Shown: positions 39,030 to 60,885 of the stretch, in pieces
Layout: every line of letters starts with the position of its first letter
How positions within the stretch are numbered: the stretch's first letter is position 1
DNA from: Melioribacteraceae bacterium
Lineage (GTDB): Bacteria > Bacteroidota > Ignavibacteria > Ignavibacteriales > Melioribacteraceae
NCBI GenBank assembly: GCA_030584085.1
Contig: CP129490.1
Coordinates: forward strand, 1,769,511 to 1,833,510
Direction: 5' to 3'
DNA: 64,000 nt
Notes under the pieces: model-generated
Told to the model about the DNA's origin: nothing
Database searches by the model: none
What the model saw: only the letters and a program-made list of their open reading frames with translations
Position numbers and translations under genes: made by a program

Positions 39030-39047
39030 GATGATTTTCTAATCATC
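39030..39047. terminator. Small hairpin between convergent genes
   Basis: GATGATT (39030-39036) pairs with AATCATC (39041-39047) around a four-base loop, just after the plus-strand stop and including the minus-strand stop. The T tails are weak on both sides, so it may be a poor bidirectional terminator only. Confidence 0.3.
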
Positions 39048-42847: not shown

Positions 42848-45800
42848 ATGAAAAAAATATTACTCACACTTATACTAATAATTATTAACAGTCAAATAAT
42901 TGCCCAAACAGACGACTGCCCAATTTGCCCACCCAACGGGAGTGACCAAACAGAATATGATGTAATAAAAACCAAAGATATGATGTACGAGGGAGAGTAT
43001 GTTCCGGGAGAAATACTTATTAAATATAAAGATGAAGTAACACTGGTACTTGGTAAAAGTAGTAAGGGAACAGTGATAACCGGCATTAGTGCAATAGATG
43101 CAGTATTCGAAAAACATAAAATAACCGAAGCAAAAAAACTTTTTCCACAAGAAGATAGACTTCAGCAGAAACAAATATTAAAATCATTTAATGGATATGA
43201 ATTTGAAAGACCGTCTCTGCATAACATACATAAAATAAAAATCTGTGAGGAAGCAGAAAGAGTAAACATATTTGAAGCAATAGAAGAGCTAAAACAAATA
43301 CCTGAAGTAGAATACGCAGAACCAAATTACATTTATTCTATTATTGATAGTGAACCATTATCACCCGAACTAAGCGAAGAAGAAATGCTTGAGTGGATAA
43401 ATAAACAAGGAGGGGGAGAAGGGGAGAAAGGGAGAATTAATAAAATACAAGCGGTAGTCCCCAACGATCCCTTATACTCCGAACAATGGGGCATACCTGC
43501 AACACAAGTTGATTTAGTTTGGGAAACTACCACCGGAGATACAACACAAGTAATAGCAATACTTGATACGGGGGTAGATTGGAACCACCCCGACCTAAAA
43601 AATAAGATATGGAAAAACATAGATGAAATAGAAGGTAACGGACAAGATAACGATGGCAATGGATTTATTGATGACATAAGAGGCTGGGACTTTATAAACC
43701 ATGACAACAACCCAATGGATGATAACTCCCATGGTACACACGTAGCCGGAATAGCCGCAGCGGAGGGAAATAATGGAATAGGAATAGCGGGAGTAAATTG
43801 GGGTGCTAAGATAATGCCTATAAAAGTATTCCAGAGCAGCGGAAGAGGAGATGCAGCAACGATAACGGAAGGGATAATTTACGCCACGAACAAAGGTGCA
43901 ACAGTAATTAACATGAGCTTTGGCAGTTATACAAGAAGTTTAACGATGGAAGATGCACTTGCAAATGCATACGCAACAAGCGTTTTAGTTGCTGCTGCTG
44001 GAAATGATGATAAATGCATTGGTCCTCCAGAAGTCATGAAATGTAAAAGATTTTATCCCGCAGCTATTTCGTATGTATTAGGAGTTGAAGCTACAAAAGA
44101 AATAGCTTCACCATGCTCGCCTGGACAACCATCAACATTTAGAGCATGTTTTTCAAACTATGACCAAGATGGGCCTGTATTTAGTAGGTATGAAGAATTA
44201 AATAATTATGAAATAAAAGCACCTGGTGCCAATATAATTAGCTCCGTTCCAAATGGAAATTATAGAGTATATAACGGAACATCAATGTCAGTTCCTTTGG
44301 TTGCCGGAGCAGTATCACTATACAGTAGTGTATATACGAGTCAATCACAAGAATTAATGTGGGGGAATTTTATAAATACAATCAATATTCATATTCAAGT
44401 TTTTAATGCAATGAATATCGATGCTGATCCCAGATTATGGTTTGTATCACATACGATAGTAGATACTTTAGACGGAGATGGTGACGGAAGAGTAGATGCT
44501 GGGGAAACAATAGAATTATGGTTTGAAGTAAGAAATACGTGGGGACAAGTGGATTCTGTTTGGGTTGGAATTGAATTTGGCGAGTTTGAGGATACAACAA
44601 CTGCTACTATTCTGAAGGAGAATGCGTTTATAGGAAGTATAAGTACTTATGCAAAAAGATCAAACGAATTTAATCCCTTGAAAATTGCAGTAGAATCAAG
44701 TTTAGCAAATGCAAGAGATATTACTTTCCGGGCTAGTCTATGGTACCCTGGTTTAACAGAGCCTGTTTTCCATAATATGATTTTAGTAGCAGAAAATGGA
44801 GAGGAAATTTCAGGTGTTATTGATTCAATATTAGTTCTGACTCCAAATAAACTATGGCTAGTAAGAAATAGTTTAAGAATAGGGAATAATGGAAAATTAA
44901 TAATTAAACCTGGTGCTAAAATACTAATTGATGGCAGTCAAACTATTGATTTGCGAGGCAATATAAGTGCTAGAGGAACAAAAGACAGTCTAATTATAAT
45001 TTCAAGTTATCCCTTTACCGGTTTCTCATCTGGATTTTATCGAAATAATCGCCCAACAATTGGTGATACACTAGAGTTTGTTCATTTTCGTAACCTTAAC
45101 AAAGTATATATTCAAGATCTTGCTAATTGGCCAGGATTAACAGTAAAGAACTGTATATTTGAAAATATTTATGGTGGAACAGCTGGAGTAAGTGACTTTT
45201 TAAGGGGATTTAGATATTTAATAAACAATGTCTTTTTATTCTGTCATGGTCAAATAGTAGCAGAACCAATTGGGTCGATTTCATTAGCCTTATTCAATAA
45301 TTTTATCGGAGGCTATTACAGACAAAGTAATTCAAATAATCGACCTGAGTTTAAGTATAACAATTTTGTAAATATCAAAACATATAATGATTTTAGTACA
45401 TTTTTTGAAATATCATCAGATGATGGTTCATATAGCTATAATAACTTTATTTCAAGTAAAATAATGAATACTGTTGGCTCTGCTGATATTTTGCATGTCC
45501 CATATAATTATTGGGGAACTCTTAATGAGGATAAAATAAATGATTTTTATATAGATTTTTGGGATGGTTCAAATTTACCTTTGTTAGATATAACTCCTTA
45601 TTTGACTATGCCCTCAGATTCCGCTCACGGAATAGTTTGGAAAGTATTAGTAGACGGAGTAGATTCCCAAGACGAACATCTTGATCCAATCGGTCCCGGT
45701 CCACACCGCTTTGATGTTTACTTTAATCGGGCAATGGATACAGATTATACTCCATCACTATCATTTGGAGTAAGAGAACCATTTAACCAACAAGCAGTAA

Positions 45801-47089
45801 CAGACTCATCCTTTTGGTCAGCAGACAGTATGATATGGACGGCATATAAAACCATCCAACTCCACACCGGTGACGGAATAAATAGAATACGAGTTGCTGA
45901 TGCAAGAGATACAGAAGACTTTGAAATACCAATAGAAGACCAGCGATTTGAGTTTGTAATTGATGCAGCCGGTTTAAGCTCTGTTGACTTTAATGCTACA
46001 GCCGGTCTAGGCAAAATAGAGCTTGACTGGATTCAACCAGAGGACGTTGTTGATTTGCTAGGGTATAACCTTTACCGCTTTACAAATCTTACAGACACAA
46101 CCTATACCGATACACTAATGGTAAATACCGAGATGATACTCGATACAACTTATGTGGATTATGACGTGATACCGGGTAACAATTACTATTACCAATACAC
46201 AGTAGTAAAAACAGACTTTACAGAGAGCGACAGATCAATAGTAGTTGGCTCTACAGCATTAACTTCAAGTCCGGGAGATGCAAATGGAGATTTGGCGGTA
46301 ACAGTACAAGATATAGTTTCCATAGTAGCATATTTATTGAACCAAAACCCTCAACCATTTATTCTCGAAGCAGCAGACGTAAACGGTGACTCTCAAGTAA
46401 ATATTCTGGATATAGTAGCGACCGTAAATATTATCATGTCTGAGAGCTTGCCAAAACTATCAGAAATAAGCGGCACACCAAAAATAACATTTGATAAAAA
46501 ATCAGCATACATAGAAGAAGGAGAAGGACTAGCCGGATTACAGTTCAAGATAGTAGGAACAGACATAGCTAAGGCAAACCTAATAACCGGAGAAGCAGCC
46601 AAAGGAATGGAGATATCTTACAATGTAGTAGGTGATACGATGTATGTAGTAATGTTCAGTTTCAAGAACCAAACACTTACAAACAAAGAGAAAGGAATGC
46701 TGTTCAGTTTAACGGAAGGATACTTAAGAGAACTGAAGGAAGTAACGGGAAGCAACCAGAAGGGAGACAAAGTAGAGATCGGTTTAGTAAATGACGGAGA
46801 AATAATACCGAAAGATTTTACGTTATATCAGAACTACCCAAACCCGTTTAATCCGACAACAACGATAAGATACGCAATCCCAAAACAAGAGAAAGTAGAG
46901 ATAAGGATATACAACATACTGGGACAAAAAGTATGGGAATACTTAACAGAAGAACAACAACCCGGTTACTATGAAGTAAAATGGAATAGTGTAAATAGCA
47001 GTAACAGACAAGTAGCAACTGGAGTTTATATATATCAAATAAGAGCGGGCAAATTTATTCAAGCTAAGAAGATGTTGTTGCTGAAGTAA
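42848..47089 (+). CDS. T9SS-secreted subtilisin-like protease with dockerin-like module (copy A)
   Basis: A 1413-residue extracellular S8 protease. Signal peptide to about IIAQ; propeptide (about 30-165) with VPGEILIKYK and VEYAEPNY; catalytic domain with Asp240 (AILDTGVDW), His295 (DNSHGTHVAGIAAAE), oxyanion Asn386 and Ser479 (NGTSMSVP). A long beta-rich middle follows, then a fibronectin III-like segment. The dockerin-like pair (about 1143-1200) has loops GDANGDLAVTVQD and ADVNGDSQVNILD, and the T9SS sorting domain (from about 1323) starts at QNYPNPFNP and ends KKMLLLK. First 300 and last 417 residues are almost those of copy B; the middle is not. It opens the protease/cohesin locus. No strong ribosome site. 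Confidence 0.93.
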   Translation: MKKILLTLILIIINSQIIAQTDDCPICPPNGSDQTEYDVIKTKDMMYEGEYVPGEILIKYKDEVTLVLGKSSKGTVITGISAIDAVFEKHKITEAKKLFPQEDRLQQKQILKSFNGYEFERPSLHNIHKIKICEEAERVNIFEAIEELKQIPEVEYAEPNYIYSIIDSEPLSPELSEEEMLEWINKQGGGEGEKGRINKIQAVVPNDPLYSEQWGIPATQVDLVWETTTGDTTQVIAILDTGVDWNHPDLKNKIWKNIDEIEGNGQDNDGNGFIDDIRGWDFINHDNNPMDDNSHGTHVAGIAAAEGNNGIGIAGVNWGAKIMPIKVFQSSGRGDAATITEGIIYATNKGATVINMSFGSYTRSLTMEDALANAYATSVLVAAAGNDDKCIGPPEVMKCKRFYPAAISYVLGVEATKEIASPCSPGQPSTFRACFSNYDQDGPVFSRYEELNNYEIKAPGANIISSVPNGNYRVYNGTSMSVPLVAGAVSLYSSVYTSQSQELMWGNFINTINIHIQVFNAMNIDADPRLWFVSHTIVDTLDGDGDGRVDAGETIELWFEVRNTWGQVDSVWVGIEFGEFEDTTTATILKENAFIGSISTYAKRSNEFNPLKIAVESSLANARDITFRASLWYPGLTEPVFHNMILVAENGEEISGVIDSILVLTPNKLWLVRNSLRIGNNGKLIIKPGAKILIDGSQTIDLRGNISARGTKDSLIIISSYPFTGFSSGFYRNNRPTIGDTLEFVHFRNLNKVYIQDLANWPGLTVKNCIFENIYGGTAGVSDFLRGFRYLINNVFLFCHGQIVAEPIGSISLALFNNFIGGYYRQSNSNNRPEFKYNNFVNIKTYNDFSTFFEISSDDGSYSYNNFISSKIMNTVGSADILHVPYNYWGTLNEDKINDFYIDFWDGSNLPLLDITPYLTMPSDSAHGIVWKVLVDGVDSQDEHLDPIGPGPHRFDVYFNRAMDTDYTPSLSFGVREPFNQQAVTDSSFWSADSMIWTAYKTIQLHTGDGINRIRVADARDTEDFEIPIEDQRFEFVIDAAGLSSVDFNATAGLGKIELDWIQPEDVVDLLGYNLYRFTNLTDTTYTDTLMVNTEMILDTTYVDYDVIPGNNYYYQYTVVKTDFTESDRSIVVGSTALTSSPGDANGDLAVTVQDIVSIVAYLLNQNPQPFILEAADVNGDSQVNILDIVATVNIIMSESLPKLSEISGTPKITFDKKSAYIEEGEGLAGLQFKIVGTDIAKANLITGEAAKGMEISYNVVGDTMYVVMFSFKNQTLTNKEKGMLFSLTEGYLRELKEVTGSNQKGDKVEIGLVNDGEIIPKDFTLYQNYPNPFNPTTTIRYAIPKQEKVEIRIYNILGQKVWEYLTEEQQPGYYEVKWNSVNSSNRQVATGVYIYQIRAGKFIQAKKMLLLK
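42926..43825 (+). repeat. 5' homology block of copy A (partner 50978-51877)
   Basis: Gapless 900-base match to the second protease gene at a constant offset of 8052, coding for the propeptide and the first part of the catalytic domain. Similarity is high at the DNA level, including many silent positions, and falls sharply after GAKIMPIK. Confidence 0.85.
45837..47089 (+). repeat. 3' homology block of copy A (partner 53943-55195)
   Basis: A 1253-base gapless match at offset 8106, coding for the end of the middle region, the fibronectin III-like segment, dockerin-like pair and sorting domain. It runs to the stop codon in both genes. Confidence 0.87.
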
Positions 47090-47134
47090 CTATGAACAGA
47101 ATATCCACCTTAATAAAATATTGAATATGCTTAA

Positions 47135-47154
47135 CCCACAGTTTCAACTGTGGG
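47135..47154. repeat. Intergenic palindrome 1 with GTTTCAAC core
   Basis: CCCACAGTT-TC-AACTGTGGG: perfect 9-bp arms around a two-base loop, with GTTTCAAC at its centre. It has no T tail, so it is not a classical terminator. It sits in the 136-base gap between copy A and the triple-cohesin gene; a second palindrome with the same centre follows. Confidence 0.75.
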
Positions 47155-47181
47155 AGAATAAAAGAAGCCAAAATTTAATTT

Positions 47182-47197
47182 AACCGTTTCAACGGTT
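47182..47197. repeat. Intergenic palindrome 2 with GTTTCAAC core
   Basis: AACCGTT-TC-AACGGTT: perfect 7-bp arms, the same two-base loop and the same GTTTCAAC centre as the palindrome 28 bases upstream. The outer flanks can pair further with a mismatch. The two look like members of one short extragenic repeat family. Confidence 0.7.
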
Positions 47198-47225
47198 TAA
47201 TAATTGTAAAAAATATGAGTAAAAA

Positions 47226-49730
47226 ATGAAAAAAATAATTCCGTTCATTATCGCATTCACTTTACAGAGTTTTTTACTTGCACAAAACATTATGCACATA
47301 CCAAATGTTTCGGGAGATGCAAATAATACAATACTTGTAAATCTGGAAATTAATAATGCAGATGAGTTTGTAGCATTCCAAACTGATATAACACTTCCGG
47401 CTCAAGTGACATACCTTGCAAACTCCGCATCTTTAACAGGAAGAAAATCCGATCACAGTTTATCCGCTAATGTAATTAACGGAAATATTTTAAGAATAAT
47501 TGCATTTTCGATAAATCAAAATCCTTTTTCCGGGAACTCAGGGTCGGTTCTTACTTATGAGCTGGTATTAAAAACAATTCCGGGTATATATACTCTGCAA
47601 ATGTCAAACTCAATAATAAGTGATGAAAACTCTACAAATATTATTACATCCTTCGTAAACGGGCAGTTAACATTATATGCTCCGGATGTTGATTTAAGCA
47701 CAGGTTCAATCAACTTTGGTGAAATCCCACTATTACAAAATAATACCAGGCAGTTCACAATTTATAATTATGGGAATGTGACACTAAATGTTTCTCGTGT
47801 AGCAAATACAATTGAATACTTTGAGGTAATTGGTGATACTCTATTTTCAATCTCACCGGGAAGTAATAGGTCTGTTTCGGTGCGGTTTAATTCGGTTGAA
47901 AAGGGTGTATATGCAAATAAAATACAAATTTATTCCAACGATCCCGATGAAGCATTAAAAGAAATAAATACAACCGCAACCGCATTTGCTGTCAATGAAT
48001 TGCACGGACTTTCAGCTTCAGGTCGTTCAGGTTATCCCGTTGAAGTTGAATTTACTATGAACAATATGGAAGGGATAACCGGTTTCCAATTTGATATAGT
48101 GCTTCCGAGTGTGCTCACATTCATCCCGGATTCGATTTTTTTATCCGAAAGAAAAGTTGATCATGTCATCAGTGCCTCTCAGATATCTTCAAATCGATTA
48201 AGAGTTGTTTCTTATTCACCTTCAAACAATACTTTCACAGGAAATGACGGACAGCTATTAAGTGCTAAGTTTAATTTGGATGGAACAGGAGGTAATCATA
48301 ATTATAATCTTGAAAACGTTGTACTTTCGGATGGTAGTGCTGAAAATGTGGTTTCTGATTATTCCTCAAGTTATGTTAATGTCGCCTCACCGGATATAAA
48401 CGGGAACGGAATAATAAATTTTAGTGAAGTTTCTGTTGTGGACTCTGCTAATGTAATTTATCAAATAAGTAACACCGGTAACGATACTCTCAAAATAACT
48501 TCAATAACTTCAAACAACCCTAGCTTTTGGACAAATTTTGAATCACTTTTAATTATTCAACAAGGGACGTCTGAGAATCTAAGTGTGTCATTCCATAATT
48601 CACAAAAAAATACTCACACCGGAAGACTTACTTTACGCAGTAATGATCCTGATGAAGATCCGTTTTATGTTAATCTCACTGCTAATGCATTTGCCCCTAA
48701 TTACATTGGTGTTGGTGATACCAGTGGATTTAAGAATACTGAAGTTATTTTAGAAATAAATATTGACAATCATGAACAATTTACGGCATTTCAAGTTGAC
48801 ATTGATGTTCCGGAGAACTTTACCTATGTAGATAATAGTGCGGTTCTTACCGATCGAAAACAAGATCATAGTATTAGTGTATCTGTCGTAGGGACGAATA
48901 AAATTAGAGTCATCTCATTTTCAATGACAGGTAAAGTTTTTGAAGAAAACACCGGAGCTGTTGCCCAGTTATCTTTTATGGCTGACTGCAATGCGGGTGA
49001 CTATGAGTTAACCTTATCAAGCGGTATTCTATCCGATCAGTCATCAAACAATATTTTATATGCTTTACACAACGGGAGTTTAGAGATAAAGGAAAATATA
49101 GTTATTAATGCAAAAGTGTTTTTAGAAGGACCATATAATGCCGGTACAATGCAAGCTTCCTTAACAAATATTCCACTCTCACAACCTTATAATGCTGCAC
49201 CGTGGAATTATGTGGGAACTGAATCAGTTGAAGAAATACCGGTGGATGTTGTTGATTGGGTTCTTATTGAACTAAGAAGTAATACAACAACTGCGATTAA
49301 TAAATATGCTTGTTTCTTGAAAACCGATGGATCTATTGTTGATCTCACCGGAACCGGCTTAATCAATTTTCCGGAGAATTCTGGAAATTATTATCTAGTT
49401 ATTCATCACAGAAATCATTTGTCGATTATGAGCCAATCAGCTCTATCGCTTAATACAAATTCGGAATCATATGATTTTACAACAAATACAAGTAAAGCAT
49501 ATGGAACCAATTCTCTTAAAGATTTAGGCAATGATACTTGGGGTATGAAATCAGGTGATTCAAATGCTTCAAAAATAGTAACGTTTGCAGATATCCTTTT
49601 TGCTATACCTAGTCTGAATTCAACAGATTACAATTCTGCAGATATAAATTTGTCAGGTATTGTGACAATCGCAGATCTTTTAAAAATTATACCAAATAAT
49701 AATTCATCTTCCAACGTTCCAGAAAATTAG
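47226..49730 (+). CDS. Scaffold-like protein with three cohesin-like modules and a terminal dockerin-like segment
   Basis: An 834-residue secreted protein (signal peptide to about SFLLAQ). Cohesin-like modules lie at about 23-150, 257-386 and 492-622; each has a VxxxxNxxxFxAFQxDI-type strand, an R-x-x-DH motif (RKSDH, RKVDH, RKQDH) and LRxIxFS. Two choice-of-anchor/ASH-like domains (155-255, 390-490, with YSNDPDE and LRSNDPDEDPF) separate them. Next comes a Bacteroidota-type domain (LEGPYNAGTMQ, PLSQPYNAAPWNY), then GDSNASKIVTFADI and ADINLSGIVTIADLL, a divergent dockerin-like pair (about 777-822). There is no T9SS sorting domain. Calcium-dependent scaffold function is inference. Confidence 0.8.
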   Translation: MKKIIPFIIAFTLQSFLLAQNIMHIPNVSGDANNTILVNLEINNADEFVAFQTDITLPAQVTYLANSASLTGRKSDHSLSANVINGNILRIIAFSINQNPFSGNSGSVLTYELVLKTIPGIYTLQMSNSIISDENSTNIITSFVNGQLTLYAPDVDLSTGSINFGEIPLLQNNTRQFTIYNYGNVTLNVSRVANTIEYFEVIGDTLFSISPGSNRSVSVRFNSVEKGVYANKIQIYSNDPDEALKEINTTATAFAVNELHGLSASGRSGYPVEVEFTMNNMEGITGFQFDIVLPSVLTFIPDSIFLSERKVDHVISASQISSNRLRVVSYSPSNNTFTGNDGQLLSAKFNLDGTGGNHNYNLENVVLSDGSAENVVSDYSSSYVNVASPDINGNGIINFSEVSVVDSANVIYQISNTGNDTLKITSITSNNPSFWTNFESLLIIQQGTSENLSVSFHNSQKNTHTGRLTLRSNDPDEDPFYVNLTANAFAPNYIGVGDTSGFKNTEVILEINIDNHEQFTAFQVDIDVPENFTYVDNSAVLTDRKQDHSISVSVVGTNKIRVISFSMTGKVFEENTGAVAQLSFMADCNAGDYELTLSSGILSDQSSNNILYALHNGSLEIKENIVINAKVFLEGPYNAGTMQASLTNIPLSQPYNAAPWNYVGTESVEEIPVDVVDWVLIELRSNTTTAINKYACFLKTDGSIVDLTGTGLINFPENSGNYYLVIHHRNHLSIMSQSALSLNTNSESYDFTTNTSKAYGTNSLKDLGNDTWGMKSGDSNASKIVTFADILFAIPSLNSTDYNSADINLSGIVTIADLLKIIPNNNSSSNVPEN

Positions 49731-49741
49731 AGAGGTTGTTT

Positions 49742-50857
49742 ATGAGATATGTAACAATATTCTTTTTTATTCTTTGCTTCTCTTTATACGGACAAAGAAT
49801 TGCATTACACACTATTACTAATGTAAATGTAGATACAGATTTGAACAAATATTCATTCGATATTTATTCAAAAAGCACAGGCGGCACAAGTATCAGAGTT
49901 GGGTTAACAAGTTATTATATTAACTTTAATTCACTTGGCCTAGCAAATCCAATATTATCGAATGTAAACTCCAAATATACTACAGGTTCACCAACCGGTG
50001 ATTATGACGAATTGACTGTCGAAATAGTTGGGGGTACTAACATCGCTGTAACAATTTGGTTTAGCGGAGACGGAGATGGTATCGGAGATGTGCTTTCCAC
50101 GGATGGAGAAAATGGGGAGCGAATTGCGACTGTAACACTCGATATTACAAACTCAGAATTGACGGCGGGGATTAGTTGGAACGAAATCGATAGTGGAATG
50201 ATCACACCTACTTTCCAATTAATTACGAATAATTACCAAGGTTCAGATGATAGTCCGCTTCCCGTAGAATTAACAATGTTTTCGCATGAATTAGTTGATG
50301 GTGAAATATCATTGTTTTGGGAAACTGCAACCGAGGTAAATAATTTTGGATTTGATGTGGAGAGAGGAACTCTTAATACAGACAGCACAAAAGAATGGTA
50401 TAAACTTGGATTTGTAGAAGGTGCTGGTACATCAAATTCACCGAAAAGTTACGAATTTATAGATTCATACCTACCTGATGAACTTACAGTTTGGTACAGA
50501 TTAAAACAAATAGATAACGACGGAAAATATACTTATACAAAGTCCATTGAAGTGGATTTATCACCAATAACAAGTGTTGAAGAGTTTTTACCCACTCAAT
50601 ATTCAATATCCCAAAATTATCCCAACCCGTTCAATCCAAGTACAGTGATTAGGTATACGATCCCGGAAGATTCCAGAGTTAAGCTAGAAATATATAATTC
50701 AATAGGACAGAAAGTAAGAACAATAATAGATAACCAAATTCAAGCTGGATATCACGAAGTAAAATTAAACGCAAATGATTTTTCAAGCGGAGTATATTTT
50801 TTCAGAATACAAGCTGGAAGTTTTATAGAGACTAAAAAGATGTTATTAATTAAGTAG
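49742..50857 (+). CDS. Secreted protein with T9SS sorting domain, function unknown
   Basis: A 371-residue secreted protein: signal peptide (to about SLYGQ), a beta-rich N-terminal domain of about 150 residues, a common Ignavibacteria/Bacteroidota linker domain with ELTMFSHELVDGEISLFWETATEVNNFGF (in parts), then the T9SS sorting domain starting QNYPNPFNPSTVIRYTIP and ending KKMLLIK. ATG at 49742 is chosen because AGAGAGG lies upstream at the right distance; the in-frame TTG at 49736 touches that site. No catalytic or cohesin/dockerin module is seen. It sits between the triple-cohesin gene and protease copy B and may be a structural member of the locus. Confidence 0.82.
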   Translation: MRYVTIFFFILCFSLYGQRIALHTITNVNVDTDLNKYSFDIYSKSTGGTSIRVGLTSYYINFNSLGLANPILSNVNSKYTTGSPTGDYDELTVEIVGGTNIAVTIWFSGDGDGIGDVLSTDGENGERIATVTLDITNSELTAGISWNEIDSGMITPTFQLITNNYQGSDDSPLPVELTMFSHELVDGEISLFWETATEVNNFGFDVERGTLNTDSTKEWYKLGFVEGAGTSNSPKSYEFIDSYLPDELTVWYRLKQIDNDGKYTYTKSIEVDLSPITSVEEFLPTQYSISQNYPNPFNPSTVIRYTIPEDSRVKLEIYNSIGQKVRTIIDNQIQAGYHEVKLNANDFSSGVYFFRIQAGSFIETKKMLLIK

Positions 50858-50878
50858 TATGAAGTACTACTAACTTTT
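50853..50878 (+). terminator. Hairpin with T run between the sorting-domain gene and protease copy B
   Basis: AGTAGTA (50853-50859) pairs with TACTACT (50865-50871) around a five-base loop and includes the stop codon; TTTTT follows at 50874-50878. The short stem makes it a weak intrinsic terminator at best. Confidence 0.35.
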
Positions 50879-50896
50879 TAAAGAAAAGGTGATGTA

Positions 50897-53800: not shown

Positions 53801-55195
53801 GTAGGTATTCAAAGATTTGATATTTATTTCAATAGGCCAATGAACCCAAATTTCGAACCCCAGGTCACGTTTGGAAGAATTTACCCTTATTTGACAGATA
53901 GTGTCAAAGATTCTAGTTCTTGGTCACATGATTATAAAATTTGGACGGCATATAAAACTATTCAACTCCACACCGGTGACGGAATAAACAGAATACGTGT
54001 AGCAGATGCCCGTGATACTCAAGACTTTGAAATACCGGTTGAAGATATGCGATTTGAATTTGTGATTGATGCAGCCGGCTTAAGCTCAGTTGATTTTAAT
54101 GCAACAGCCGGGCTCGGTAAAATAGAATTAGACTGGATTCAACCGGAAGATGTAGTTGACCTACTTGGTTATAATCTCTACCGATTTACGAATCTTACAG
54201 ATACAACCTATACAGATACACTAATGATTAACAATCAACTGATAACAGATACAACGTACACAGATTTTGATGTAATACCGGGGGATAATTATTACTATCA
54301 ATACACAGTAGTAAAAACAGACTTCAACGAATCAGAAAGATCAAAAGTAGTTGGTACAGAAGCTCTTACTGCCTCCGCCGGAGATGCCAACGGAGACTTA
54401 AGTGTTACGGTTCAAGATATAGTTTCCATAGTAGCATATCTATTAAACCAAAACCCTCAACCCTTCATTTTAGAAGCAGCCGATGTAAACGGTGATTCTC
54501 AAGTAAATATTCTGGATATAGTAGCAACTGTAAATATTATCATGTCTGAGAGCTTGCCAAAACTATCGGAAGTAAGCGGTCCACCAAAGATAACATTCGA
54601 TAAAAAGAGAGCATACATAGAAGAAGGCGAAGGACTAGCCGGATTACAGTTCAAGATAGTTGGAACAGATATATCTAAAGCAAACCTAGTAACCGGAGAA
54701 GCAGCCAAGGAAATGGAGATATCGTACAATGTAATTAGTGATACGATGTATATAGTAATGTTCAGCTTCAAGAACCAGACACTTAATAATAAAGAAAAAG
54801 AAATGTTGTTCAGTATAACAGAAGGATACTTCAGAGAACTCAAGGAAGTAACGGGAAGCAATCAGAAGGGAGAAAAAGTAGAGATCGGTTTAGTAAATGA
54901 CGGAGAAATAATACCGAAAGATTTTACGCTATATCAGAACTACCCGAACCCGTTTAATCCTACGACAACAATAAGATACGCATTACCAAAACAAGAGAAA
55001 GTAGAGATAAGAGTATTCAACATACTTGGACAAAAGGTATGGGAATACTTTGCAGAAGCACAACAACCGGGATATTATGAAGTAAAATGGAATAGTGTAA
55101 ACAGCAGCAACAGACAAGTAGCAACGGGAGTGTACATATATCAAATAAGAGCAGGCAAATTTATTCAAGCTATGAAAATGTTGCTTCTTAAATAA
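50897..55195 (+). CDS. T9SS-secreted subtilisin-like protease with dockerin-like module (copy B)
   Basis: A 1432-residue paralogue of copy A. Same order: signal peptide (to about TIFSQ), propeptide, S8 domain with Asp241, His296 and Ser466 (SGTSMGAP), beta-rich middle, fibronectin III-like segment, dockerin-like pair (about 1162-1220, GDANGDLSVTVQD and ADVNGDSQVNILD) and T9SS sorting domain (from about 1342). The ends match copy A closely, but the middle (about 328-1015) is largely unrelated in detail and 54 bases longer, with aromatic- and Asn-rich beta-helix-like stretches such as NNCEFYNGNYFYG. AAGGTG precedes the ATG. The triad is intact, so both copies should be active. Confidence 0.92.
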   Translation: MKSKGMLVSLFLLLCITIFSQDKDCPTCPPNGSDQTEYDVIKTKDMMYEGEYVPGEILIKYKAEVNPVLGKTSKGHVVTGISAVDAVFKKHKVTEAKKLFPQAERLQQRQILKSFNGYEFERPSLHNIHKIKISEEAERLNLFEAIEELKQIPEIEYAEPNYIYSIIDSEALSPGLSEEETLEWINKQGVGEGEKGRINEIQAVVPNDPLYSEQWSIPATQVDLVWETTTGDTTQVIAILDTGVDWNHPDLKNKIWKNPDEIEGNGQDNDGNGFIDDIRGWDFINNDNNPMDDNSHGTHVAGIAAAEGNNGIGIAGVNWGAKIMPIKILDNKGRGDAAIISQGIIYASSNGASILNMSFGGYSKSFTMEAALMDAIAISELVAAAGNDRKSIYPSSPDLRDASTMYPAAFNFVLGVQVVESFSNYDPDGPIKSEFATGENYELISYGGSILSSVPAGLYRIYSGTSMGAPLVSGIISLYNQIKNPITREERWSDFIHLSRPTNANTNIFSSTKFPVFDLRHFELTDTLTGNDYDNQADAGEIIHLWTRIRNSFGQADSTFIKLQLSDISREYFSDHIEFTKDVVFLGSISPFGEKNNQYDPFIFYLEPTFPNESYFELEVLMWDAANSDTSSHLISIVVFNGTELSGFLEGDIVLTPDKLWLINNSTRLTEGSTMKILPGTHLILNGSFDNRGYIEAIGSKDSLIIIEGGGLGITLNKYVKYFGKGNDIRGGIFNNCEFYNGNYFYGDFDSCKFYIGKSFFDSKVKNSFIDSFNDTDINSTYLINNHSGAFSNNTVQNSVLWGGLQWADTLTTNNFINNIYSAYSNFPNIKKSTYSKYNNFVKAINGYVYSYPTFPHLWQPAYLFYLDETNGAKYYGNNFIIPDDTKEFFIVKTEGSSNIIDFPNQYWGTTDLNKVNSLIYDFNDNASIPLVNIQPLTTPPSDSAHGVVWKILVNGQDAQDEITDPIGVGIQRFDIYFNRPMNPNFEPQVTFGRIYPYLTDSVKDSSSWSHDYKIWTAYKTIQLHTGDGINRIRVADARDTQDFEIPVEDMRFEFVIDAAGLSSVDFNATAGLGKIELDWIQPEDVVDLLGYNLYRFTNLTDTTYTDTLMINNQLITDTTYTDFDVIPGDNYYYQYTVVKTDFNESERSKVVGTEALTASAGDANGDLSVTVQDIVSIVAYLLNQNPQPFILEAADVNGDSQVNILDIVATVNIIMSESLPKLSEVSGPPKITFDKKRAYIEEGEGLAGLQFKIVGTDISKANLVTGEAAKEMEISYNVISDTMYIVMFSFKNQTLNNKEKEMLFSITEGYFRELKEVTGSNQKGEKVEIGLVNDGEIIPKDFTLYQNYPNPFNPTTTIRYALPKQEKVEIRVFNILGQKVWEYFAEAQQPGYYEVKWNSVNSSNRQVATGVYIYQIRAGKFIQAMKMLLLK
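50978..51877 (+). repeat. 5' homology block of copy B (partner 42926-43825)
   Basis: See the partner block for extent and offset. Within it, 51737-51774 (38 bases around DFINNDNNPMDD) is identical to 55909-55946 in the third protease, although the rest of that gene is much less similar. Confidence 0.85.
53943..55195 (+). repeat. 3' homology block of copy B (partner 45837-47089)
   Basis: Same length as its partner with no gaps; encodes the shared C-terminal 417 residues. Differences are mostly silent or conservative, such as KKMLLLK against MKMLLLK at the end. Confidence 0.87.
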
Positions 55196-55239
55196 ACTGG
55201 AATCAGAATTGCAATAATCCTATAACTATTGGAGTGAGC

Positions 55240-58200
55240 GTGCGAAATATAATTCTATTACTGCTATTGGTTGCTTTGTTAATTAATGCGCAAGAAGTAT
55301 TAAAAAATGATCCATACAACATTACATACGAACCAGATGTGATATTATTTATGATCAATGATGAATATGAAATTGATGGTAACGCTCTCAAAGCAAAGGG
55401 TAATATTGTCACCGGCTTAGATGGTTTGGATGCAATTCTAACTAAGTATCGTGTAAAAGAAATCAAGAAACTCTTTGAGAATTTTGAAGTAGAGAACCAG
55501 CAAAGATTATTTAAGGATTATTACGGTAACGAGCATGAAGTAAAACGTCTCGATAAAATTTATGAAATGAAGTATGAAGCCGAGATTGATCCTAAAGAAT
55601 TAGCAAGCAAGTTAAGTGAACTTTCCGAAATAGAATACGCAGAACCCGATTATCACTTCCATGCAAACGCAGTTTATCCCGATGATCCATTATATCAAAG
55701 CGGAGACCAATGGCATATTAATGCGGTAAACGCTCCGGAGGCTTGGGAATTAACGACCGGAGATACAACCCAAGTAATTGCAATTATAGATACCGGTGTT
55801 GATTGGTTACATCCCGACCTAGATGACAATATTTGGATAAATAAAGATGAAATACCCGGCAACGGAATTGACGATGATGGAAATGGATTTGTAGATGATA
55901 TAAGAGGTTGGGATTTTATAAACAACGACAACAACCCAATGGATGATAATTCCCACGGAACACACGTAGCCGGGATAGCCGCTGCAGAGGGAAACAATGG
56001 AGTCGGAGTAACGGGGATAAACTGGCATGCTAAGATAATGCCGGTCAAGATGCTTCAGAGTAATGGAAGAGGAAACAGCAGCGATTTAGCGGAAGCAATA
56101 ACATACGCATCCCAGAACAGAGTGGATGTAATAAATATGAGTTTGGGCAGTTACGGAGAGAGTCTAACAGTAAAGATAGCTTTGGAGAATGCATACGCTT
56201 ATTCAGTATTAGTTGCTGCTGCAGGGAATAATGGATATAAAGTTGATCCGCCATATCCACCGGCACCATATTTCCCAAGTTACCCTGCGTGCTATGGATT
56301 TGTAATTGGAGTTGAAGCCTCTACTAGTGGAAATGAAAGAGCATTATTCTCAAACTATGATCCTTCAGGACCAGTTGCTGTTGGCAATCCATACAACCAT
56401 AACTATGAAATAATGGCGCCAGGAGTGAATATAGAAAGCATATTTCCAAATGGAGGATATAAAGGGATAAGTGGAACATCAATGGCATCCCCGATAGTGG
56501 CAGGAGCTGTTAGTTTAATGAAGTTGTTTGAACCAAATCAATCAACCGAAGAGATATTTGCAAAACTTATCCAGGGAACGACTAATGGAGTTTTAGATAT
56601 TGAGATGAGCATGACAATTAACCTTGTCCCCAATTTATCACTAGTGGAATATGCAATAGTAGACACTTTAGATGGAGACGGAGATGGAATAGCAGATGCG
56701 GGAGAGACGATAGAGATTTACTTTACAGTTAAGAATGCCGGAGGATATGCAGATAGTGTATGGTCGAAGATAAGATTTGGAGAATATGAAGATCAATCAG
56801 TAGCAACTATTTTGGACAGCACAAGTTACATAGGTGATATCTCTGCCTATGGAACGATGACAGGGGAACTAGATCCATTTAGAATTTATATTGACCCAGA
56901 TGTAGCTAATAGTAGAGATATAGTATTTGAGTATGAGATAGGACATGACATTAATACATTTATGACTGATGAAATTACAATCAACATACAAAATGGAATT
57001 GAATTGTCAGGATTTTATAACGGTATGAAAAAATTATACCCGAATAAAGAATATATCATAACTGGTAATGCTGTTTTTGATTCACTGATTATTTATCCTG
57101 GCACAATTTTAAGAATTGATCAGGATATATCTATTATTATAGATAAGTTTTTTTATTGTAAAGGAAAGCCCGATTCATTAATCCTATTTACAAAAAACGG
57201 AAATAATTATTGGAATAGAATAGATATATTAAATAATGCAGGTATCGGAGAGGATCCTTATTTCAGTGAAATTGAATACTGTATTTTCGAATATTCAAGT
57301 CATAATTATCAAATTGTTAGCGGAGCATCATCAATCGAGAATTCGATTTTTAGATATAACTTTGGTGTTGGCGATATCATAACTAGTGGTAATATCCGAT
57401 ATTCTAATTTTTATTATAATCAATCATCAAATATTATCTATTACCATTCAGGAGTAGCAGAATATAATAATATTATAAGTAATGAAACGGGATACTATCC
57501 ACCAATTCTTGGTAACATTAGTTCCAAAACTAATAATAATTTTTTCGATAATTATCAGAGAATACCAAGAACTTATTTTTCGATTGGACTCCCCGAAGGA
57601 TCCTTTAGTATAAACTATTTGCCATCTAATTATTTTGGTTCTTTCGATAATGAGAAAATCGATAAAGAAATTTTGGATTTTTTTGATAATTCAGACTTCC
57701 CAATTATTGAACCCATTGAACCACTTTTTGCACCTTCTCCACTAGCTCATGGTATTGTTTGGAAAGTAGAAGTAAACGGAATAGACCCTCAAGACGAACA
57801 TCTAGATCCACTCGGATCTGAGACAGTAAGATTTGATGTTTACTTCAACCGATCAATGGATGTAGCATCAACTCCATTCCTTACCTTTGGAGTGAGAGAA
57901 CCCTACACACAACATATTGTAACAGACAATTCTTCTTGGTCGGCAGACTCAACTATTTGGACAGCTTTCTACACCTTCGGTCTGGAGACCGGTGACGGTA
58001 TAAATACAATCAGAGTAGCCAACGCAAGAGATGATGAGTACTTTGAAATTCCAATTGAAAACTCACGCTTTAAGTTTGTACTCCAAGCAGCCGGCGCTGC
58101 GTCAACTGAGTTCCTTGCCACAGCGGATATCGGTAAAGTTAACTTAGAATGGCCGGTAGCAAATACAGATGACGAGCTTGGCTACAACATGTATCGTTAC

Positions 58201-59205
58201 TATATGGTGGATGAATCAACCACCTCAGACACTACAAGAATTAATCAGACACTTATCACAGACTCTACTTACACAGACTACAATGTAATTCCAGATACGA
58301 CTTACCGTTATTATTATACAGTTCTCGGTACGGATATGGCAGAAAGCGATCCTTCAAAAACAGTTGCAGCTAAACCGTTCAACGCATCAAAAGGAGATGC
58401 AAACGGTGACTTGGAAATAAACGTACTAGATATAACGACTATAGTAAGCTACTTACTTAACCAAAACCCTCAGCCCTTCTTAAGTGATGCCGCGGATGTG
58501 AACAATGATGGATTTATAAATGTTTTGGATATAGTCGCTTCGGTAAATATTATAATGGGTAACTCCAATCCAAAAATCATCGCTTCATCGGGAGAACCGC
58601 TAATTCAATATGATGACAAGACAGTAAGATTAAAAAATGGCGATCACATAACAGCAATCTATTTAAAAGCACTTGTAAATATTGAAAGTGAATATAGACT
58701 TGTTCCAAATGAATTAATGAAGAGGATGGAATTTGGCTTCAATGTAGTGAATGATACTTTATATATGGTTGCGTATAATCTTAATAATCGAGCAATCGAA
58801 ATAGATGAAGGGAGTTTATTTACAATAAACAATGGTAAGATAAAAGAGATTATAGAAGTTTCGGCCGCGGATCAGCTCAACAATCTTTTAAATGTAACTA
58901 TATCAAATAGTAAGGAAGAAATACCAAATGAGTTTGTTCTTTTTCAAAATTATCCCAATCCTTTTAATCCCACCACTACTATTAAGTATGGACTAAAACA
59001 GATGGAAGATGTTGAAATAAAAATAATTAATATACTCGGTCAATTAGTTTGGGAGTATAAAGAGTTACAAAAACCGGTAGGTTATCATGAAGTATTATGG
59101 AACAGTCTTAATAGCAGTAACAGAAATGTAGCCAGTGGAGTTTATATATATCAAATTAAAGCCGGAAGTTTTTTTGACGCAATGAAAATGATTTTGTTGA
59201 AGTAA
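55240..59205 (+). CDS. T9SS-secreted subtilisin-like protease with dockerin-like module (copy C)
   Basis: A 1321-residue third S8 protease. GTG at 55240 is chosen because GGAG at 55231-55234 is correctly spaced from it and overlaps the earlier in-frame GTG at 55234. Signal peptide (to about LLINAQ), propeptide with IEYAEPDYHFH, then Asp184 (AIIDTGVDW), His239 and Ser414 (SGTSMASP). The middle starts with DTLDGDGDGIADAGETIEI, shared with copy A but not B, followed by a beta-rich region. A fibronectin III-like segment, dockerin-like pair (from about 1054, GDANGDLEINVLD and ADVNNDGFINVLD) and sorting domain (QNYPNPFNPTTTIKYG) follow. More diverged overall; a separate lineage of the same family. 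Confidence 0.92.
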   Translation: MRNIILLLLLVALLINAQEVLKNDPYNITYEPDVILFMINDEYEIDGNALKAKGNIVTGLDGLDAILTKYRVKEIKKLFENFEVENQQRLFKDYYGNEHEVKRLDKIYEMKYEAEIDPKELASKLSELSEIEYAEPDYHFHANAVYPDDPLYQSGDQWHINAVNAPEAWELTTGDTTQVIAIIDTGVDWLHPDLDDNIWINKDEIPGNGIDDDGNGFVDDIRGWDFINNDNNPMDDNSHGTHVAGIAAAEGNNGVGVTGINWHAKIMPVKMLQSNGRGNSSDLAEAITYASQNRVDVINMSLGSYGESLTVKIALENAYAYSVLVAAAGNNGYKVDPPYPPAPYFPSYPACYGFVIGVEASTSGNERALFSNYDPSGPVAVGNPYNHNYEIMAPGVNIESIFPNGGYKGISGTSMASPIVAGAVSLMKLFEPNQSTEEIFAKLIQGTTNGVLDIEMSMTINLVPNLSLVEYAIVDTLDGDGDGIADAGETIEIYFTVKNAGGYADSVWSKIRFGEYEDQSVATILDSTSYIGDISAYGTMTGELDPFRIYIDPDVANSRDIVFEYEIGHDINTFMTDEITINIQNGIELSGFYNGMKKLYPNKEYIITGNAVFDSLIIYPGTILRIDQDISIIIDKFFYCKGKPDSLILFTKNGNNYWNRIDILNNAGIGEDPYFSEIEYCIFEYSSHNYQIVSGASSIENSIFRYNFGVGDIITSGNIRYSNFYYNQSSNIIYYHSGVAEYNNIISNETGYYPPILGNISSKTNNNFFDNYQRIPRTYFSIGLPEGSFSINYLPSNYFGSFDNEKIDKEILDFFDNSDFPIIEPIEPLFAPSPLAHGIVWKVEVNGIDPQDEHLDPLGSETVRFDVYFNRSMDVASTPFLTFGVREPYTQHIVTDNSSWSADSTIWTAFYTFGLETGDGINTIRVANARDDEYFEIPIENSRFKFVLQAAGAASTEFLATADIGKVNLEWPVANTDDELGYNMYRYYMVDESTTSDTTRINQTLITDSTYTDYNVIPDTTYRYYYTVLGTDMAESDPSKTVAAKPFNASKGDANGDLEINVLDITTIVSYLLNQNPQPFLSDAADVNNDGFINVLDIVASVNIIMGNSNPKIIASSGEPLIQYDDKTVRLKNGDHITAIYLKALVNIESEYRLVPNELMKRMEFGFNVVNDTLYMVAYNLNNRAIEIDEGSLFTINNGKIKEIIEVSAADQLNNLLNVTISNSKEEIPNEFVLFQNYPNPFNPTTTIKYGLKQMEDVEIKIINILGQLVWEYKELQKPVGYHEVLWNSLNSSNRNVASGVYIYQIKAGSFFDAMKMILLK

Positions 59206-59229
59206 ACAAGTAAAAATTCAGAGGAACTT

Positions 59230-60885
59230 TTGAATAAAATAATATTAGTTATTCTGTTTGTATCTCTTCAATTGCTCGAGGCTCAAGCGCAAAATATTGT
59301 TTCAATCAATGATGTGACTGCTTCAGTTGGAGACACAATAAAGATAGCAGTCAATGTTCAAAACGTTGATGAATTTGTTGCTTTCCAATCAGACATTGTT
59401 TTGCCCGATGTTTGTATTTATCAACAAGGGTCAGTAAAACTTAGTGAAAGAGCAGAGGATCATACGTTATCTGCTAATCTATTAGATGGAAATGTTCTGC
59501 GGGTAATTGCGTTTTCAATCAGCCAAAAAAGTTTTTCGGGAAATAGTGGTGAGTTGATAACATTTAATGTTATTCTCAAAGATCAGCCGGGTGATTACAT
59601 AATAAATATTTCTAATTGTGTTTTAGCTAATAGTAATTCGGATAATATTCTTACCGGTATTAATCCGGGTAATTTAATCGTAAAAAAAAAGTCCATCATT
59701 AAAAAAGTTCAATTAAATGTGGGTTGGAATTTAGTTTCAGCCCCATTGGTAAAAGATAACATGAATTATTTGAGTGTGTTCCCCACCGCAATTTCACATC
59801 CTTATGAATTTACGGATAGTTATCACAAAATTGATACTCTCAGAATTTTTAGCGGATACTGGATAAAGTTCTCTGCCGATTTACTACAACAGATAGAAGG
59901 ATTAGAAAGTGATGAAAATAGAATTCCAGTTTACCAAGGTTGGAATTTAATTGGCAGTTTTAGTGACTTAGTTTCAACGGGTGAAATGCTTCAAGTCCCA
60001 AATGGTATAACATCTTCGGAGTTTTTCGAGTTTGATGGTGGTTACAAATCAGTAGATGAATTACAACCGGGTAAAGGTTATTGGATTAAAACTATGTCGG
60101 ATGGCTATCTTGAAAGAAATGATCAGCCTAGTAAAATGAAATATGAGTTGCTCAATAACGCTAATTATGAAGTAGAGTTCAATGCCTCAAATGGCAAGGG
60201 AAGTTCACAACTCTTAAAAATTGGTTTTGACTCAACCGGTACAGATGGATTAGATCCACATTTAGGAGAACAAGAGTTACCGCCGCCCCCACCCAGCGAA
60301 ATATTCTTTATTCGATTTGCACTTCCTAATTCATTCATTAGTTCATATTCTGATATAAGATTTGGTGAATTGAATGGAATCTATACTTACGAACATGAAC
60401 TACAATTTCAATTAGGTGAAGATGCTACGGAGTTAATACTAAACTGGGATCAACCATCCGGTGTTAATATTACAATACAAGATTTGTTTGGAGGTGTGAT
60501 AGTTAATGAAAATTATTTACCGGGAACAAATGAATTTAGCCTAAATAACACCAATATTACCTCGCTTAAACTAATAGTTAGTTATTCAAACATAACTTCA
60601 ATTGACCAAAAACGATTACCAATCGAATATACACTTTATCAAAACTACCCAAACCCGTTTAATCCAACTACAATGATTGAATATTCAGTTTCGAAGAACG
60701 TTTTTGTTACTTTAAAAATTTATGACTTATTGGGTCGAGAAATAAAAACTTTAGTAAATGAGGAGAAATCTGCAGGTAAATACAAAGTGTCTTTTGATGG
60801 ATCTGAAACATCATCTGGTATTTATATTTATAGTTTAAAGGCTGGTGAATTTTATAAAACTCGGAAATTACTTCTATTGAAATAG
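59230..60885 (+). CDS. Single-cohesin protein with T9SS sorting domain, candidate surface anchor
   Basis: A 551-residue secreted protein. TTG at 59230 is preceded by GAGGAA at 59221-59226. Signal peptide to about EAQAQ, then one cohesin-like module (about 22-150) with VGDTIKIAVNVQNVDEFVAF, RAEDH and LRVIAFS, closely resembling the first module of the triple-cohesin protein. A middle domain with GWNLVSAPL, GYWIKF, GWNLIGSF and GYWIKT repeats follows, then a short beta domain and the sorting domain from about 471 (QNYPNPFNPTTMIEYS), ending RKLLLLK. Cohesin plus sorting domain is what an anchoring scaffold would need: surface export by T9SS and capture of a dockerin partner. Function is inference. 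Confidence 0.83.
   Translation: MNKIILVILFVSLQLLEAQAQNIVSINDVTASVGDTIKIAVNVQNVDEFVAFQSDIVLPDVCIYQQGSVKLSERAEDHTLSANLLDGNVLRVIAFSISQKSFSGNSGELITFNVILKDQPGDYIINISNCVLANSNSDNILTGINPGNLIVKKKSIIKKVQLNVGWNLVSAPLVKDNMNYLSVFPTAISHPYEFTDSYHKIDTLRIFSGYWIKFSADLLQQIEGLESDENRIPVYQGWNLIGSFSDLVSTGEMLQVPNGITSSEFFEFDGGYKSVDELQPGKGYWIKTMSDGYLERNDQPSKMKYELLNNANYEVEFNASNGKGSSQLLKIGFDSTGTDGLDPHLGEQELPPPPPSEIFFIRFALPNSFISSYSDIRFGELNGIYTYEHELQFQLGEDATELILNWDQPSGVNITIQDLFGGVIVNENYLPGTNEFSLNNTNITSLKLIVSYSNITSIDQKRLPIEYTLYQNYPNPFNPTTMIEYSVSKNVFVTLKIYDLLGREIKTLVNEEKSAGKYKVSFDGSETSSGIYIYSLKAGEFYKTRKLLLLK

Follow-up and report, generated by a model that had tools for sequence, protein, structure and literature searches.

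A putative two-tier cohesin-dockerin assembly for secreted S8 proteases in a Melioribacteraceae genome

Six neighbouring open reading frames (ORFs) of a Melioribacteraceae bacterium (GCA_030584085.1, contig CP129490.1) probably encode a protease complex of two tiers on the outside of this Ignavibacteria cell, anchored by the type IX secretion system (T9SS) and laid out like a clostridial cellulosome with its anchor. The ORFs, all on the plus strand, span positions 42848-60885 of the 64,000-nucleotide stretch of DNA that we analysed (the window; Table 1), just as a preliminary description of this DNA had listed them. ORF1, ORF4 and ORF5 are S8 proteases with dockerins, ORF2 is a scaffoldin with three cohesins and a putative C-terminal X-dockerin (XDOC), ORF3 is a putative anchor, and ORF6 has a single cohesin. 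Module identity, folds, gene pairing and the covariation of the tier-2 dockerin and cohesin are supported by computation. What is new here is the proposed second docking pair, the XDOC of ORF2 with ORF3; related protease complexes have already been proposed for the planctosome and for Stygibacter.

The six ORFs were scanned with Pfam (whole proteins, E<=1) and NCBIfam. Peptidase_S8 was found in ORF1, ORF4 and ORF5 at 154-181 bits, and the expected catalytic motifs are present in all three, in ORF1 as LDTG, HGTH and GTSM. Dockerin_1 (PF00404) passed its gathering score of 22.9 bits in the same proteins (33.4, 29.1 and 36.0 bits, respectively), with D, N, D and D, the calcium-binding residues of dockerins, at positions 1, 3, 5 and 12 of both loops. 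By score and by their two calcium-loop repeats the three modules are predicted type I dockerins, and the S8 proteases with dockerin-like modules of the preliminary description were thus recovered. It had also seen no glycosidase or carbohydrate-binding module, and we likewise found no glycoside hydrolase (GH) or carbohydrate-binding module (CBM) family in the six ORFs (Pfam, E<=1). The whole genome has six dockerin matches at E<=0.01, three of which are these proteases; the other three dockerin ORFs have no GH catalytic family, and one of them carries a GH43 C-terminal lectin-like domain. ORF1 and ORF4 are 79-94% identical in their end blocks and 28-39% in three middle blocks. This suggests recombination or diversification between the catalytic domain and the dock, and it fits with differing substrate-facing parts on a shared dock.

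The cohesins are harder to see in sequence. The Pfam scan of the whole ORF2 protein (E<=1) gave no cohesin match, and Pfam and NCBIfam together returned two HYDIN/choice-of-anchor-D immunoglobulin-like (Ig) domains and a sub-threshold dockerin. The ORF6 cohesin scored 21.7 bits with PF00963 in the whole protein and 26.8 as an isolated module, around the cut-off of 24.1. A profile of 16 aligned modules, four from the window and twelve from relatives, had 15 matches in the PDB at E<=10, every one of which is a chain of a cohesin or a scaffoldin (the best being 3l8q at 1.3e-4), and ten of the 16 modules matched PF00963 at E<=1. In the predicted model of ORF2 (predicted local distance difference test, pLDDT, 85.8; predicted template modelling score, pTM, 0.44, which does not fix the domain arrangement), all three modules aligned to solved cohesins by VIA-align at Z 16.6-17.6. 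Foldseek with the same protein ranked ciliary HYDIN-type chains first, an outcome that we attribute to the Ig spacers; it was VIA-align that gave the matches to cohesins. With three cohesins and no catalytic Pfam family, ORF2 is a scaffoldin. The triple-cohesin and single-cohesin proteins that had been proposed from visible motifs are therefore supported by profile and predicted fold, and the profile check suggested at the time put Dockerin_1 over its cut-off in three proteases and PF00963 at the borderline in ORF6 and nowhere in the ORF2 scan. The ORF6 cohesin is nearest to the position-1 cohesins of scaffoldins. The domain after the ORF1 dockerin was also compared with the cohesin profile (hhalign E 7.8e-4, probability just 25%); Pfam shows no cohesin there, and we did not call it one.

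The T9SS type A tail (TIGR04183) scored over its cut-off in ORFs 1, 3, 4, 5 and 6, which are, as far as sequence can tell, T9SS type A cargo. SprA is present in the genome (1039 bits), and T9SS export is therefore plausible. The T9SS route of the preliminary description is supported for these five ORFs by their tails; in ORF2 neither Pfam nor NCBIfam found a T9SS-tail match.

The pairing of such proteases with scaffoldins was followed across genomes by using an alignment of the dockerin and its following domain (A8), which contains no scaffold cohesin. Among 97 related genomes, A8 was found in five (G000 three times, G005, G031, G049 and G075), all of which also matched a whole cohesin module in the search with ORF2, weakly in the case of G031 (24% identity). 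Only one of the other 92 genomes (G071) had a whole-cohesin match; the remaining matches of the ORF2 search there were Ig spacers or the C-terminal module. A GTDB scan with A8 gave 76 loci, 39 of which carry this dockerin (a score of 75 bits or more with the window profile), and in 29 of the 39 there is also a cohesin-family gene (above 25 bits). These loci are not all independent, because L108, L109, L110 and L121 are the relatives G075, G031, G005 and G049 and because several of the loci share one metagenome-assembled genome. In 27 of the 29 loci the nearest cohesin gene begins downstream of the protease at a distance of 809 bp or less; in L109 and in L146, which is from Ancylomarina salipaludis, it lies upstream. 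A three-cohesin gene is present in 27 of the 29; L124 shows two cohesins before the contig end, and L109 one. In nine of the ten loci that lack a cohesin gene, the contig breaks off no more than 169 bp behind the last protease. Altogether there are 42 dockerin proteins in the 39 loci, 37 of them with an S8 domain (one partial); four of the five others start at a contig edge, and the one in L109 starts mid-contig without the N-terminal part. The named carriers, with Ignavibacteria and Bacteroidales among them, include Ignavibacteriaceae, Melioribacter, BRH_c32, Prolixibacteraceae, Paludibacter, Prevotella, Ancylomarina, Cloacimonadota, KSB1 and Neomarinimicrobiota. This neighbourhood of protease and cohesin gene is far beyond chance frequency, and it answers the search for side-by-side gene sets that had been suggested earlier. 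ORF6-like single-cohesin proteins recur next to the pair (e.g. L108, L131, L137 and L141). In 24 cassettes, 68 of the 72 cohesins have their nearest foreign-cassette cohesin at the same scaffoldin position, so that each position retains its own cohesin type.

The second tier starts from the end of ORF2. The scaffoldins of close relatives (L043, L044 and L046) end in a T9SS tail, and ORF2 ends in the XDOC. Residues 620-834 of ORF2 match many different proteins of relatives, whereas its cohesin part does not. In the predicted model the XDOC begins with a beta-rich part, after which come two short helices. Its dockerin-like end scored 15.6 bits with Dockerin_1, under the cut-off, and the loops keep D, N, S and D; NCBIfam gave the module no name, and we filed it by sequence as dockerin-like rather than as a PF00404 member. 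Dockerin_1 was matched by five of 19 XDOC members at E<=1. The XDOC profile had 13 PDB matches at E<=10, all weak (best 0.027): two are cyanovirin, and the other 11, two of which are titled 'Serine protease', we take to be dockerins, in part from their entry names.

ORF3 starts 5 bp past the ORF2 stop, and it was because of this gene order that ORF3 was considered as the partner, before its structure was predicted. In the model (pLDDT 88.5, pTM 0.55), the first 24 structural matches of the N-terminal domain are all cohesin structures (6kgf_C at Z 14.4), an FN3 domain lies in the middle, and the C-terminal domain resembles that of PorU (6za2, Z 9.8). By sequence there was no relation between the ORF2 cohesins and this N-terminal domain (probability 0.6%), and ORF3 had no PF00963 match at E<=1. 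ORF3 had been described as one further T9SS cargo, which its tail bears out, but it also has the predicted cohesin-fold domain; for ORF2 the three cohesins had been recognised and the second docking tier missed.

The two modules keep company in other genomes. The profile of the ORF3 N-terminal domain gave ten matches in seven of the 97 genomes, all seven with an XDOC, which itself was present in 28 of the 97. Eight of the ten matches, or four of six when the four seeds are excluded, lie directly downstream of an XDOC. Further counts come from loci picked around XDOC matches (69 XDOC ORFs, 26 genomes). An ORF3-family gene is found at most 400 bp downstream of 25 of the 69, such a pair occurs in 20 of the 26 genomes, and the XDOC is directly upstream of 24 of 34 ORF3-family genes. 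A T9SS-tail match was found in none of the 69 XDOC ORFs, compared to 30 of the 34 ORF3-family ORFs, and in 58 of the 69 no more than 11 residues separate the XDOC from the end of the ORF (some ORFs are broken). When more genomes of the phylum were drawn, 12 of 99, our own included, had an XDOC. Among 17 regions from the 11 other genomes there are nine (L185, L186, L187, L192, L194, L195, L198, L199 and L201) in which the gene next after the XDOC gene has a product of 362-435 aa and a T9SS-tail match, which is weak (9-34 bits) in four; the ORF3-family profile matches just two of these nine proteins. The other eight regions have no next gene of that kind, or a neighbour without a tail match or of differing size.

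Some of these loci have features of their own. In G164 (L201) there is a divergent version, with cohesins and XDOC, then the ORF3 type, then a cohesin with a T9SS tail. A 409-aa protein (L186:6406-7635) has weak ORF3-family matches (22-34 bits) and an XDOC in one chain, like an adaptor. In L093 and L094 the XDOC ORFs stand in two frames just before the ORF3-type gene, reflecting assembly errors or decay. Contig C21 of G019 (L052, L053 and L101) has twelve XDOC matches in about 40 kb and, next to this cluster, one ORF3-type gene, and the ten XDOC proteins scanned there include GH9, GH67-N/DUF4838, a GDSL lipase and an S8 protease. This cluster is possibly a cellulosome-like system of Ignavibacteria built on the XDOC/ORF3 docking pair.

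Covariation was measured on 25 adjacent XDOC/ORF3 pairs by correlating pairwise distances (171-300 comparisons, depending on gaps). The dockerin part and the ORF3 cohesin-fold domain correlated at 0.75, compared to 0.40, 0.30 and 0.14 in the controls with the X module, FN3 and the T9SS tail, respectively. Sliding windows of at least 0.6 were confined to ORF2 residues of about 760-830 and ORF3 residues of about 1-175, and the bootstrap difference of dockerin minus X was 0.35 (0.18-0.52). Other domain boundaries gave 0.70 for the dockerin and 0.35 for X, each above all 5000 permutations. X and FN3 correlated at 0.69, which indicates that general co-inheritance exists; the dockerin-cohesin link had partial correlations of 0.74 and 0.71 after controlling for X and for FN3. 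The covariation of the second tier is centred on the dockerin and the cohesin-fold domain.

We suggest that the complex would be assembled as follows. In the first tier, the near-canonical dockerins of the three secreted S8 proteases would plug into the three cohesins of ORF2 or the single cohesin of ORF6; in the second, ORF3 would receive the XDOC of ORF2 in its cohesin-fold domain, and the T9SS tail of ORF3 would fix ORF3, and hence ORF2, to the cell surface. It is most likely through T9SS tails of their own that the proteases arrive at the surface, and they would gather on ORF2 and ORF6, while ORF3 would hold ORF2. Binding, its calcium dependence, the surface location and the breakdown of extracellular protein are what we infer from the modules. 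Why enzymes with tails should be gathered can only be guessed: proximity on one substrate, or release from their individual anchors. The boldest reading of ORF2 export is that ORF2 passes as a passenger of ORF3. Extended to the phylum, this becomes more tentative, and we put it forward at somewhat less than even chances: a second cohesin-dockerin system would replace the T9SS tail, in that XDOC proteins would bind a sequence-cryptic cohesin on a small, tailed partner encoded by the next gene and be displayed, and perhaps T9SS-exported, as its passengers, carrying in the present locus a whole protease scaffold.

Several points weigh against the two-tier complex. The proteases own T9SS tails, and therefore a scaffold is not needed for their display; the route of ORF2 across the outer membrane has no explanation in the model. 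In the first tier, the dockerin correlated with the three cohesins at 0.61, 0.54 and 0.53 and the S8 control at 0.58, 0.65 and 0.64, without a localised signal; with Prevotella left out, the values were 0.44, 0.30 and 0.25 for the dockerin against 0.17, 0.20 and 0.22 for S8. We read the strongly conserved dockerin as a presumably fixed interface, which is not positive evidence. In the second tier, the X module also exceeded all 5000 permutations, and co-inheritance therefore contributes; permuting partners within genomes was not significant (929 of 5000), with just five genomes having two pairs. No ORF3-type gene lies within 400 bp downstream of 44 of the 69 XDOC ORFs, and six of the 26 genomes are without an adjacent pair. 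G071 has cohesins without such a dockerin protease, and in L133 a stretch of 1816 bp follows the protease with no cohesin gene in it. Of the 27 three-cohesin genes, 12 have a T9SS-tail match, eight run off the contig, and seven are complete without a tail. Among these seven, L111 and L116 have no recognisable tail, and three from Prevotella end in a dockerin (L135 at 42.2 bits in Pfam; L138 and L140 by a local profile) and are followed by a gene with a cohesin, an arrangement that is a parallel two-tier solution. In L135, L138 and L140 the product of that next gene is about 2500 aa long; it has a cohesin and a dockerin and, close to the end, another stretch resembling a cohesin.

Three other explanations have to be weighed. 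The complex may be real and yet serve in adhesion, or in surface-protein maturation or turnover, instead of feeding on external protein. Clostridial S8 proteases with dockerins are thought to process cellulosome components or to recycle secreted proteins (PMC12484212), and a single catalytic family (S8 in 37 of 42 proteins, no other detected) is narrow for a digestive machine. However, ORF1 and ORF4, with similar ends and divergent middles, look as expected if diversified for different substrates on a common dock, and we regard this first alternative as less likely than not. It is less probable that the XDOC is a T9SS targeting or retention signal rather than a dockerin, and ORF3 an independent surface adhesin. 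The terminal position of the XDOC, the absence of T9SS-tail matches from all 69 XDOC ORFs and the many XDOC genes of G019 for few ORF3-type genes would agree with a signal. In contrast, 11 of the 13 PDB matches of the XDOC profile, weak as they are, are taken for dockerins, its two loop repeats have D, N, S and D, the N-terminal domain of ORF3 has a predicted cohesin fold, and the covariation drops at the borders of both domains. Least probable of all is a protease dockerin acting in cis, packing on the following domain to stabilise the C-terminus beside cohesin proteins that are separate co-transcribed adhesins: the following domain is matched in 34 of 42 family proteins and weakly resembles a cohesin, and two proteins of the own genome (L047 and L048) hold dockerin and cohesin Pfam matches in one chain, but this leaves unexplained why 29 of 39 loci, from several phyla, have a cohesin gene next to the protease, and the following domain is poorly conserved (its profile misses Prevotella L135, L138 and L140) while the dockerin is strongly conserved.

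The two-tier complex can be compared with known systems. In the cellulosome of Clostridium thermocellum, CipA carries cohesins and an X-dockerin II, and there are anchoring scaffoldins. Shared with the predicted layout of the present locus are enzyme dockerins, a multi-cohesin scaffoldin ending in an X-dockerin and a separate anchor with a different cohesin. Two solved chains with a cohesin, an X module and a dockerin, 4fl4_I and 3kcp_A, could be aligned with residues 489-832 of ORF2 (4fl4_I at Z 16.6, 279 of 309 residues, root-mean-square deviation (rmsd) 11.4); single cohesins reach an equal Z, so that X and dockerin add little. The pair of X-dockerin and anchoring scaffoldin fits in architecture and covariation, with binding between ORF3 and the X-dockerin being predicted. 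Unlike in the clostridial system, the catalytic partners found here are S8 proteases, the anchors are T9SS tails, HYDIN-type Ig spacers lie between the cohesins, and the anchor cohesin is cryptic in sequence. With no GH dockerin partners and no CBM on its scaffoldin, the locus does not qualify as a cellulosome.

The preliminary description regarded a protease-gathering complex as a new use of this assembly, which was too strong, because protein-degrading complexes had been proposed before (PMC6461901, PMC8542988) and S8 proteases with dockerins occur in clostridial cellulosomes (PMC12484212). The planctosome of Nemodlikiaceae (Planctomycetes) is a proposed cohesin/dockerin complex for polypeptide breakdown; in the available text it differs in having M12B and M14 peptidases, an anchor with a lamin-tail domain, and one cohesin each on anchor and adaptor (PMC6461901). 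The cellulosome-like complex proposed for Ca. Stygibacter (Cloacimonadota), with dockerin-bearing S8 and C25 peptidases, shares the S8 peptidases and a C-terminal surface-attachment domain on the scaffoldin; it differs in a 3,755-aa scaffoldin with CBM2/CBM3 and in GH18 and GH57, and no separate X-dockerin/anchor pair is described in the sections available (PMC8542988). Clostridial cellulosomes include dockerin-bearing S8 proteases: dDoc_0689 of C. thermocellum is likewise an S8 protease with a (double) dockerin and prefers the cell-bound scaffoldin, but it is a cellulosome accessory without a dedicated protease scaffold (PMC12484212). The 2013 genome paper of Melioribacter roseus reports cellulases without dockerin and scaffoldin domains (PMC3534657). 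Among the open-licence PMC papers listed in our searches we saw no description of the cassette or of the XDOC/ORF3 pair, a scope that leaves absence unproven.

Some neighbouring genes may be mentioned. Divergently upstream of ORF1, on the minus strand at 39039-42582, lie what look by eye like a sensor kinase and a response regulator of the NtrC type, which could regulate ORF1. Promoter- and terminator-like sites were about as frequent as in shuffles (88 against 81.8 expected, and 6 against 9.9). In the own genome, the proteins L047:8965-12780, L048:5621-7642 and L049:7917-12938 each have dockerin and cohesin matches and a T9SS tail, and none of their dockerins is matched by the profile of the protease dockerins. 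In G071, a two-cohesin protein stands beside a protein with eight HYDIN/ASH-type Ig matches and an S8 protease without a dockerin match (L046:9233-19122).

Table 1. Features of the locus in window coordinates.
Feature	Position	Strand	Description
ORF1	42848..47089	+	S8 protease, 1413 aa; dockerin, T9SS type A tail; motifs LDTG, HGTH, GTSM
ORF1 dockerin	46274..46441	+	PF00404 33.4 bits; two 12-residue loops, D-x-N-x-D...D
ORF1 post-dockerin domain	46436..46759	+	Cohesin-like only weakly by hhalign; identity tentative
ORF2	47226..49730	+	Triple-cohesin scaffoldin, 834 aa; no T9SS-tail match
ORF2 cohesin 1	47286..47672	+	VIA-align 6kgd_A, Z 17.4, rmsd 1.8, 134 aligned, model range 16-152
ORF2 HYDIN/ASH-type Ig spacer 1	47697..47954	+	PF22544 in two stretches, DUF1573, choice_anch_D
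ORF2 cohesin 2	47994..48383	+	VIA-align 6kg8, Z 16.6, rmsd 2.7, 138 aligned, model range 252-392
ORF2 HYDIN/ASH-type Ig spacer 2	48411..48677	+	PF22544, best stretch 396-484
ORF2 cohesin 3	48699..49088	+	VIA-align 6kgc_A, Z 17.6, rmsd 1.8, 132 aligned, model range 490-624
ORF2 X-dockerin (XDOC)	49104..49721	+	Beta-rich part, then divergent dockerin-like end at 49554-49721
ORF3	49736..50857	+	Putative anchor: cohesin-fold domain, FN3, T9SS tail
ORF3 cohesin-fold domain	49793..50266	+	VIA-align 6kgf_C, Z 14.4, rmsd 2.7, 143 aligned; cryptic in sequence
ORF4	50897..55195	+	S8 protease, 1432 aa; dockerin 54380-54547; T9SS tail
ORF5	55234..59205	+	S8 protease, 1323 aa; dockerin 58393-58560; T9SS tail
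ORF6	59230..60885	+	Single cohesin 59293-59679; T9SS tail; probable direct anchor

The locus belongs to a conserved cassette of several phyla, in which a cohesin-dockerin assembly would be dedicated to proteases, and with it 'proteolytic cellulosomes' become testable in defined proteins rather than in single genomes. If the XDOC/ORF3 pair is true, it would give engineers further orthogonal cohesin-dockerin pairs to work with, would account for a C-terminal module that is widespread yet matched only weakly by Pfam, and would answer how proteins without a tail get displayed on bacteria that use the T9SS.

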